Of a DNA stretch of 34,635 nucleotides, positions 1 to 1,786 are shown piece after piece. The position numbers and the translations under genes were made by a program. Source of the DNA: Bacteroidota bacterium. GTDB taxonomy: Bacteria; Bacteroidota; Rhodothermia; Rhodothermales; Salinibacteraceae. The stretch's first letter is position 1; each line of letters starts with the position of its first letter. The notes below the pieces were generated by a model. That model saw only the letters and a list, made by a program, of their open reading frames with translations. It made no database searches and had not been told where the DNA came from. The stretch is taken from positions 1 to 34,635 of the forward strand of contig JAAAOI010000140.1 in assembly GCA_009908945.1 (NCBI GenBank). Direction: 5' to 3'.

Positions 1-222
1 CGGTTTGCGCTCCCGGAAGCCACGGACGTTCGGCTGGTAGTGTTCGACCTGTTGGGCCGGGAAGTCGCCGTGCTGGTAGAGGAGATGCTGCCTGCGGGCA
101 CGTACGAGGTGCCGTGGGATGGGACCCTGCACGGTGGGCATGCGGCCGCCTCTGGCGTGTACATCGTGCGGCTTGAGGCTGGGGCGGTCCACACGACCCA
201 GCGCATCCTCCGCACCCGATGA
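1..222 (+). CDS. C-terminus of a T9SS-type secreted protein (5' partial)
   Basis: The frame is open from the first base and ends at the TGA at 220-222, giving the last 73 residues of a longer protein. The visible part is a typical type IX secretion C-terminal sorting / FlgD Ig-like fold: a strand ending in FDLLGREV, then an AG-T segment, a WDG turn, ASGVYIVRL and the final basic RILRTR. Such tails direct outer-membrane export in Bacteroidota/Rhodothermota and are usually fused to large secreted enzymes or adhesins. The cargo domain lies outside the window, so function cannot be given. The ATG at 40 offered in the ORF track is internal to this domain and is not a start. Confidence 0.85.
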   Translation, partial: RFALPEATDVRLVVFDLLGREVAVLVEEMLPAGTYEVPWDGTLHGGHAAASGVYIVRLEAGAVHTTQRILRTR

Positions 223-270: not shown

Positions 271-444
271 ATGTCTACGCCTGTATCTACATCTGACCCC
301 AACCGCCGCGATGGTGCATTCAGGCCCCCACAGCGGGTGCCCCCCAAACGGCCCTACGTGCCGCCCCGGCTTATCCGCGAGGAGCCACTCGATGCGCTGA
401 CGGCCAGCAAGTGGACAACAACGGCCCATGGTGGAAGTCCGTGA
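271..444 (+). CDS. Small peptide with lasso-RiPP-leader-like motif (hypothetical)
   Basis: A 57-residue ORF starts at ATG 271 (a GTG at 241 would add ten residues). Its second half reads KRPYVPPRLIREEPLDALT, which matches the layout of lasso-peptide leaders: a YxxPxL element followed about eight residues later by LxxLT just before the core. The remaining tail, ASKWTTTAHGGSP, would be the core. It lacks the Asp/Glu at ring position 7-9 that a lasso macrolactam needs, so it may be another RiPP class, a degenerate precursor or a chance match. No asparagine-synthetase-like cyclase, B1/B2 protein or ABC transporter is in the window. The next gene is a secreted beta-propeller protein, a type of neighbour seen beside small precursor-like peptides in Bacteroidota. 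There is no Shine-Dalgarno, as for most genes here. Coding is plausible from codon use but unproven. Confidence 0.45.
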   Translation: MSTPVSTSDPNRRDGAFRPPQRVPPKRPYVPPRLIREEPLDALTASKWTTTAHGGSP

Positions 445-712
445 GGTTGCGTCTAAAACGAACGTGAACATGCCTCCAGGGTTGACCGCAGGTACCTTAC
501 GTGTTTATGACCAAGGAGGCCCCTATCGCCACTACACGAAACGAGTGATGTGGTCTACCGTGGTCCCTGCCCCTCTCCCCGAAAACAGGCGGATGCCGAT
601 TGCAAGCGTCCGTGGCGGGGAGAGGGAACGGTCGTTGGCACGCAGGGGGCATGGCGGCACAACCCTGTGAATCACCTATCCTAACCTGTTGGCCTCACAC
701 TTCACCGCGCCC
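445..712. other. Intergenic region with an 11-bp inverted repeat
   Basis: This 268-base stretch contains no convincing gene. The 80-codon ORF at 428-670 has no recognisable domain and an implausible composition. The only structure I see is the perfect inverted repeat CCCTCTCCCCG at 571-581 with its complement at 616-626, leaving a 34-base loop. No T-run follows, so it is not an obvious intrinsic terminator. It may be a leader structure for the downstream propeller gene. Confidence 0.3.
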
Positions 713-1786
713 ATGCGGAGATTCCATCTGAAGTACGCGCCCTTGCTGCTTGCCATCGTCCTGCTTTCCTTCACTGCCGACCACCGTCCCGATGCCGCTC
801 CACCGGATGTCGAGGAAGCGCAGGTGATGCCATTTACGCTGCAGTTCGCCGAAGACGAACGCTTTCCTTTCGTGAATGACCCCCGCGGCGTGGCGGCTGC
901 CCCTTCCGGCTGGTACGTGCTGGACGCCGGAAACTATCGCGTGCTCCAGGTGACGCCCTCGGGCGATGTGCGCCGGACGTTTGGGACGGAGGGGTCCGGG
1001 CCGGGCGAACTGCTCGATCCGCGGTCCCTCCGCGTGGTTGACACGGTCGGTGACGGGTATGAGGTCTGGGTCATGGATCACGGCAATGGCAGACTGGTGC
1101 GCTTTGGACCTGACGGTCTACCGGTGGCTCATCACGGGCTTCGTAGCTCGGGCTCTTTTTGCGTCCACGCGGAGCGGTTTCTTGTCGCCGCGCCGCGTGG
1201 GCCGTCCCTAATGGATGCCTACGACCTGCAGGGCACGTACATCGAGAGTCTGGGGCCGATGGATGAAGAAAGCGACGGTGCTCGAGGGACAGGGAATCCG
1301 TATCTTGACAACGAGGTGTCGCTTACCTGTCTGGCCGACGGGCAGGTGGTCGTGACCTATCGCAACCGTCCGCTCGTGCGTCTGCTGAGCGCAGATGGCG
1401 CTATCGCGCAGGAATGGACGCTGGAGAGCCCGATCATCGACCTGATCCTGACGCCGCCCCGACAGCCGAGCGAAGCCGGTATTGAGTCGCTCAGACCGTC
1501 TGGCGGCCCCCTGTTCGTTCCGCTGATGTTTGGCGATCCCACGCTCCTCCCCGACGGTCGCCTCCTGATTGCGCTGCAATCGGCGGCGTTCCATACGCTG
1601 GACCTGGCAACTGGCGCGCAGCAGACGTATGCGTACATGGACCTTCTTTCGGCCGTCGAAGAACAGCGCGAGATTGCGGCGGAGGACTGGCGCGCCCTGT
1701 GGCATGTGGGTGTTTCAGCAGAGGGCACGCTCGTGGCGGTCGACCCACAGCTGGATGAGCTCGTGGTGGTGGAGCTGGTAGACTGA
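713..1786 (+). CDS. Secreted 6-bladed beta-propeller (NHL-repeat-like) protein
   Basis: I chose ATG 713 over the TTG at 689 because it gives a clean export signal: MRRFHLKY followed by the hydrophobic stretch APLLLAIVLLSFTA. The mature protein of about 335 residues begins with NHL-type blades: FPFVNDPRGVAAAPSGWYVLDAGNYRVLQVTPSGDV, then a second blade with VMDHGNGRLVRFGPDG. Later blades are more degenerate. The general 6-bladed propeller family of Bacteroidota is exported and its ligands are mostly unknown. No lipobox cysteine is visible, so a periplasmic or secreted location is likely. It follows the small RiPP-like ORF on the same strand and may belong with it. Confident on fold and export, not on function. 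Confidence 0.75.
   Translation: MRRFHLKYAPLLLAIVLLSFTADHRPDAAPPDVEEAQVMPFTLQFAEDERFPFVNDPRGVAAAPSGWYVLDAGNYRVLQVTPSGDVRRTFGTEGSGPGELLDPRSLRVVDTVGDGYEVWVMDHGNGRLVRFGPDGLPVAHHGLRSSGSFCVHAERFLVAAPRGPSLMDAYDLQGTYIESLGPMDEESDGARGTGNPYLDNEVSLTCLADGQVVVTYRNRPLVRLLSADGAIAQEWTLESPIIDLILTPPRQPSEAGIESLRPSGGPLFVPLMFGDPTLLPDGRLLIALQSAAFHTLDLATGAQQTYAYMDLLSAVEEQREIAAEDWRALWHVGVSAEGTLVAVDPQLDELVVVELVD

Follow-up and report, generated by a model that had tools for sequence, protein, structure and literature searches.

What is encoded by a short open reading frame whose N-terminal part resembles the leader of a lasso peptide, and whose tail could never close a lasso ring? We addressed this question for a 57-aa ORF (ATG to TGA, translation MSTPVSTSDPNRRDGAFRPPQRVPPKRPYVPPRLIREEPLDALTASKWTTTAHGGSP) in a window of 34,635 nucleotides, the whole stretch of DNA that was analysed, which is the entire contig G000:C212 of a Rhodothermales draft genome of 268 contigs. 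A preliminary description had pointed out a lasso-like YxxPxL...T motif in this ORF, and the motif is indeed present in lasso-leader spacing (Y0-P3-L5-T15), with only the usual Gly at position 9 replaced by Glu. The same description judged a lasso ring impossible, and rightly so, as the tail contains no Asp or Glu, positions 7-9 included. It further regarded the peptide as an orphan of an undescribed system, lying beside a secreted beta-propeller gene with no maturase in view. The features of the locus are collected in Table 1; start codons of small ORFs are guesses.

Table 1. Coordinates of the peptide gene and its neighbors in the window
Feature	Position	Strand	Remarks
3′ end of T9SS-cargo gene (type A sorting domain)	1..222	+	TIGR04183, 24.3 bits (cut-off 23)
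Putative precursor peptide gene, 57 aa	271..444	+	starts 48 nt past the stop of the T9SS gene
Predicted leader, residues 1-44	271..402	+	putative RRE-binding segment Y29-V-P-P32-R-L34; conserved T44
Predicted tail/core, ASKWTTTAHGGSP	403..441	+	candidate phospho-acceptors S46 and S56
Inverted repeat, CCCCTCTCCCCG / CGGGGAGAGGG	570..626	+	minimum-energy fold a hairpin, z-score only -1.8
Secreted beta-propeller-like protein	689 or 713..1786	+	weak NHL/ScyF matches for class

The ORF is a real gene. An ortholog is found in the congener G002 (contig C8, LKNB01000021.1, a Rhodothermaceae MAG) with an E-value of 2.6e-11 and the same flanking neighbors. Over the 22 codons of the leader motif, the two orthologs differ by 6 synonymous and 2 nonsynonymous changes (dN 0.043, dS 0.45); the corresponding values are dN 0.61 and dS 0.60 for the N-terminal 20 codons, and dN 0.51 and dS 1.34 for 11 codons of the tail. 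Judged from this comparison, purifying selection is confined to the leader block while the N-terminus and tail vary, which is consistent with the pattern expected for a RiPP leader followed by a fast-changing tail. The ORF is thus conserved and under selection, contrary to what would have spoken against the preliminary description. Small size and the lack of any NCBIfam or Pfam match would also suit a spurious ORF, but that reading is refuted by the synonymous bias and by a family that spans the order in conserved context, and we give it practically no weight. The inverted repeat lies approximately 125 nt 3′ of the gene and may mark the end of transcription or be a repetitive element.

The beta-propeller mentioned in the preliminary description is real in outline, although weak matches are all that back its class. 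Its gene also lies downstream of the G002 ortholog. We rejected it as a partner because other peptides of the family do not have it alongside, and it is probably a neighbor conserved within the genus and not a defining part of the system. A partial second copy of the beta-propeller (G000:C149:5942-6391) is 90% identical over residues 216-365 and represents a duplication or a strain variant.

The peptide is short and variable, and profile searches were therefore needed over plain sequence search; a close-relative sequence scan of genome contigs returned an ortholog in G002 only. Queried blind with the two orthologs, before the kinase was known, the class yielded a weak match at G008:C109 (E 0.006), and this site adjoins genes for a PqqD, an HprK-like kinase and an NTP_transf_5 protein. 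When further kinase loci were screened for the leader pattern, a peptide came to light next to kinase and PqqD in G003, and likewise in an operon in G047. Profiles made initially from five peptides and later from seventeen recovered members at G000:C21, G000:C53, G001:C381, G002:C41 and G047:C23, and in G016, G020, G027, G033, G042 and G061, while G000:C191, G003:C368 and one peptide each in G033 and G042 were found first through their T9SS partner. The family thus defined by profile searches holds approximately 22 peptides from a single order, with leaders of the form [F/Y]xxPx[L/V/I](x9)T and short, variable tails; a 396-genome sample of the phylum contained no convincing member outside the order. 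With a stricter family regex, composed after five members were known, every match in 860 kb of DNA was a family member, and 10.3 Mb of Markov-resampled DNA gave no match. Most weak or low-scoring matches (e.g. G039, G303, G354, G506, G177, G216) were dropped for want of small-ORF or context support. The G044 peptide was treated as lasso-like, with Gly9, Tyr0, a 32-residue tail and no HprK detected. G002:C73 (18.5 bits, after an RND-pump-like gene) is a doubtful member, and the G001 peptide is divergent and has a different T9SS partner.

Serine is the C-terminal residue in 14 of 23 candidate peptides, and six tails consist of just 7 residues ending in Ser (ANTVIWS, ATIYEFS, ASVYAFS, AGGFVFS, GGSFNFS, TGVFSFS). 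The 57-aa peptide and its ortholog are atypical members, since they end in GGSP/GGSPP and not in Ser, and carry Tyr and not Phe in the leader; given the GGSP end, the modification site is uncertain.

Candidate modifying enzymes are encoded in the same genome. A search with PF05402 found one PqqD (G000:C122:13970-14170), divergent from a gene for an HprK-like kinase, and such a pair likewise occurs in G002 and G001. The absence of a maturase holds for the window ORFs scanned, none of which has a maturase domain, but not for the genome, and the peptide is no orphan: apart from the pair on C122, G000 encodes an NTP_transf_5 protein on C53 beside a related peptide, with three further such peptides. 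Peptide and kinase/PqqD pair are on different contigs in G000 (C212 and C122), and are thus only presumed to act together in trans. Elsewhere, peptide, kinase and PqqD cluster in five genomes, adjacent in G003, G008 and G047 and within approximately 3.5 kb in G016 and G020. The preliminary description would have been contradicted had no leader-binding domain occurred near the peptide in any genome; such domains do occur beside homologous peptides, and its reading as a leader-bearing, RiPP-type precursor is supported. No peptide was seen alongside the kinase in G028, G073 or G078. Every genome with a strong peptide, 12 of 12, has both a lasso-type PqqD (a putative RRE) and an HprK-like kinase; among relatives the figure is 19 of 119 (p 5e-12 by hypergeometric test, uncorrected for relatedness).

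In NCBIfam, the best matches were lasso PqqD models for the PqqD and HprK_rel_A for the kinase, all below cut-off. Searching the PDB with the G002 PqqD gave TbiB1, LppB, PbaB1 and TfuB1, which are lasso or LPP RREs, as closest entries. In nine extracted kinases LHxAxL ... GKS/T ... DD is visible, corresponding to the His-Lys-Asp-Asp set that is essential in PadeK-type kinases, which phosphorylate the C-terminal Ser of their precursors (PMC9266682). NTP_transf_5 (PF14907) is encoded beside a related peptide on G000:C53, and also in G002:C41, G003 and G008. Lasso B2 (PF13471, Transglut_core3) was found in neither G000 nor G002, both draft genomes, and draft MAGs can miss genes. An SpI-type peptidase (TIGR02228) scored above cut-off in 0 of 12 genomes, no leader peptidase was identified, and no exporter such as the MsbA-like one of LPP clusters was noticed beside the peptides. 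No Asn-synthetase-like cyclase was present among the window ORFs scanned or noticed in the loci that combine peptide, HprK and PqqD. At the level of sequence, the peptide is a conserved member of a family that co-occurs and is co-located with PqqD, HprK and T9SS genes.

We consider it likely, with a probability of roughly 70%, that the ORF encodes the precursor of an LPP-like linear phosphopeptide that is modified in trans, and that is neither a lasso peptide nor a strict LPP member. Everything beyond the sequence is inferred: binding of the leader, phosphorylation and its position, removal of the leader, export, and a link to the secreted protein, if any. The peptide would probably be co-transcribed with the upstream T9SS-cargo gene, and its leader (Y/F-x-x-P-x-L ... 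T) would be bound by the discrete PqqD-type RRE from C122, which would pass the bound peptide on to the HprK-like kinase from the adjoining, divergent gene. The kinase would phosphorylate a Ser of the short tail, in most members the C-terminal Ser and here most likely S56 or S46; S46 is comparable to Ser3 of LPP, and S56 to the C-terminal Ser of paeninodin. The NTP_transf_5 protein from C53 may elaborate the phosphate, some protease may cut the leader off after T44, and the final product would be linear.

Could the ORF instead be a lasso precursor whose B2 and C enzymes are encoded elsewhere? In the same family, lasso leaders next to B1/B2 genes show the spacing seen here, and the best matches of PqqD, if below cut-off, are lasso models. 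However, most other members also lack Asp/Glu at tail positions 7-9, several tails are simply 7 residues long, and no B2 was found in the drafts of G000 and G002. The RREs themselves also differ. In a tree of 27 PqqDs that has some long branches, 10 of 11 lasso-linked sequences from the same genomes group in a clade with 100/99 support, to which the kinase-paired ones do not belong. In LppB, it is D70 that bonds the leader Tyr (PMC13381572). At this site Asp is found in 11/11 lasso-linked and 0/14 kinase-paired PqqDs. Correspondingly, leader position 0 is Phe in 19 of 22 kinase-type peptides and Tyr or Trp in lasso-linked leaders, as read from lists compiled by hand. The kinase-paired PqqDs, which lack the Tyr-bonding Asp, match mostly Phe leaders, an RRE/leader covariation that may reflect one evolutionary event because each PqqD type is nearly a single clade. 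A lasso peptide is mostly refuted on these grounds, and we regard it as highly improbable.

The remaining alternatives concern what the peptide does, and they draw on its genomic neighborhood. Across the family it is the T9SS-cargo gene upstream, and not the beta-propeller, that recurs as a neighbor: a gene on the same strand ending in a T9SS type A tail directly precedes 17 of 21 assessable peptides, and 13/17 when restricted to peptides from the leader search, most tails having been recognized by eye and TIGR04183 run on two. The binomial estimate for this context takes an assumed 3% of genes to carry such a tail. In the window the 5′ part of this gene lies outside the contig, truncated by its edge; the ortholog on G002:C8 is longer and has a Cys...DP pre-tail domain. 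A weak common domain of this kind (Cys ... DP[V/I]xxL) precedes the tail of the upstream T9SS proteins, and its profile, run over 20 genomes, had matches in 10, all of the kinase set, and in 0/7 kinase-less genomes. One possibility, which goes beyond the preferred reading, sees the phosphopeptide as a partner or tag for the upstream cargo: it would be exported and bound by the pre-tail domain, or would aid cargo attachment or maturation. The position of the T9SS genes and the distribution of the domain speak for it, as do four of eight newly found domain genes with a leader peptide directly downstream. On the other hand, domain genes in G000:C230, G002:C106, G008:C327 and G028 have no downstream peptide, the profile found nothing in the kinase genomes G027, G037 and G047, and co-transcription may be merely regulatory; we rate this role as doubtful. 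Somewhat less credible still is a peptide that PqqD binds but that is a regulator or adaptor and no modified product, for example by bringing the kinase to the T9SS partner or by serving as a decoy substrate. Dispersed peptides paired with secreted proteins, very short tails, and the failure to see a dedicated protease or exporter would suit it, yet a variable tail behind a conserved leader, together with C-terminal Ser enrichment, is the pattern of a substrate. Within the preferred reading of an LPP-like phosphopeptide, we tentatively suggest, as a rather speculative extension, that a single kinase/RRE pair per genome modifies a number of dispersed precursors, every one encoded together with a T9SS-secreted partner of its own, and that the phosphopeptides act on surface proteins as ligands, tags or maturation factors.

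Contrary to what had been supposed, the proposed system is not without precedent. Its nearest described counterpart is LPP (linear polyphosphorylated peptides; lppA/K/B/S/D/N), which was described in 2026 as confined to Bacillota and has unknown function (PMC13381572). The LPP kinase modifies Ser3 of the core, AQSNWK, which follows the leader Thr (PMC13381572). Both systems combine a discrete RRE, an HprK-like kinase and an NTP transferase and have no cyclase, here as judged from the window ORFs scanned and the peptide loci. Several members agree with the LPP leader YxxPxVLxHQxIxFETxxS at Y/F0, P3, L5, H8, E/Q/D9, L/I11 and T15. The leaders of G008 (FVPPKLERHEKLEALT) and G047 fit it better than that of the 57-aa peptide, which agrees only at Y0, P3, L5 (for V), L11 (for I) and T15. 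A Ser soon after the leader Thr is also shared by several members (ASKW here, ASLW in the ortholog, AQSNW in LppA). The differences are equally clear: the present peptides occur in Rhodothermia and not Bacillota, their genes are scattered behind T9SS-cargo genes, their leaders mostly have Phe in place of Tyr and their RREs lack Asp at the LppB-D70 site, their tails measure 7-24 aa compared with 45 in LppA and mostly carry Ser at the C-terminus, and no SpI-type peptidase was found.

Two further known systems can be compared. Paeninodin-type phosphorylated lasso peptides (PadeK, ThcoK, SyanK; PMC9266682) have the His-Lys-Asp-Asp kinase, a PqqD-type RRE and mostly a precursor C-terminal Ser in common with the present family; here, in contrast, there is no macrolactam acceptor residue, no B2 in G000 and no cyclase in the peptide loci. 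The HPr-rel-A system (TIGR04352 HprK-related kinase A, TIGR04353 PqqD_rel_X) is likewise a pair of a kinase and a PqqD-family protein, but the scores of 41 of 200 and 17.7 of 35 bits are far under the curated cut-offs. Compared with lasso leaders in general, the PqqD-type motif spacing is present and Gly9 is missing. Our survey of the open-access literature, which excludes subscription journals, turned up no account of such RiPPs, whether from Rhodothermota or with a connection to type IX secretion. An LPP-like counterpart in a distant phylum would offer a second lineage for comparison, and very short tails with a recurring secreted partner give a strong genomic hint at what such peptides may work with. 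The Phe/Tyr leader switch together with the loss of the RRE Asp would extend the idea of pathway discrimination put forward in PMC13381572. Additionally, precursor genes can sit far from their enzymes, where cluster-based mining overlooks them.

Several minor observations accompany these results. Peptides with near-identical leaders at the start of G000:C21 and the end of G000:C53 are both cut by contig ends, which suggests that the assembly broke at repeated precursor genes. Two peptides with Gly9 leaders (G033:C1:4087251-4087319 and G044:C61:3889-3951) each directly follow a T9SS-tail gene, and the T9SS context may extend to lasso-like leaders. At L080:6418-7590 (-) and L083:2-745 (+), a PqqD domain ends a longer protein that resembles a phosphoribosyltransferase, by eye, in its N-terminal part and is encoded beside an HprK-like kinase and an NTP_transf_5 gene. 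Finally, an ORF for an AsnB-type lasso cyclase at L080:7618-9252 (-) on G002:C11 apparently runs on, without a change of frame, into the sequence of a leader-bearing peptide (MNTQPKRPFRRSMLIAEGTVADLTSTG...), and an IS3-type transposase seems to split the cyclase gene in its upstream part.
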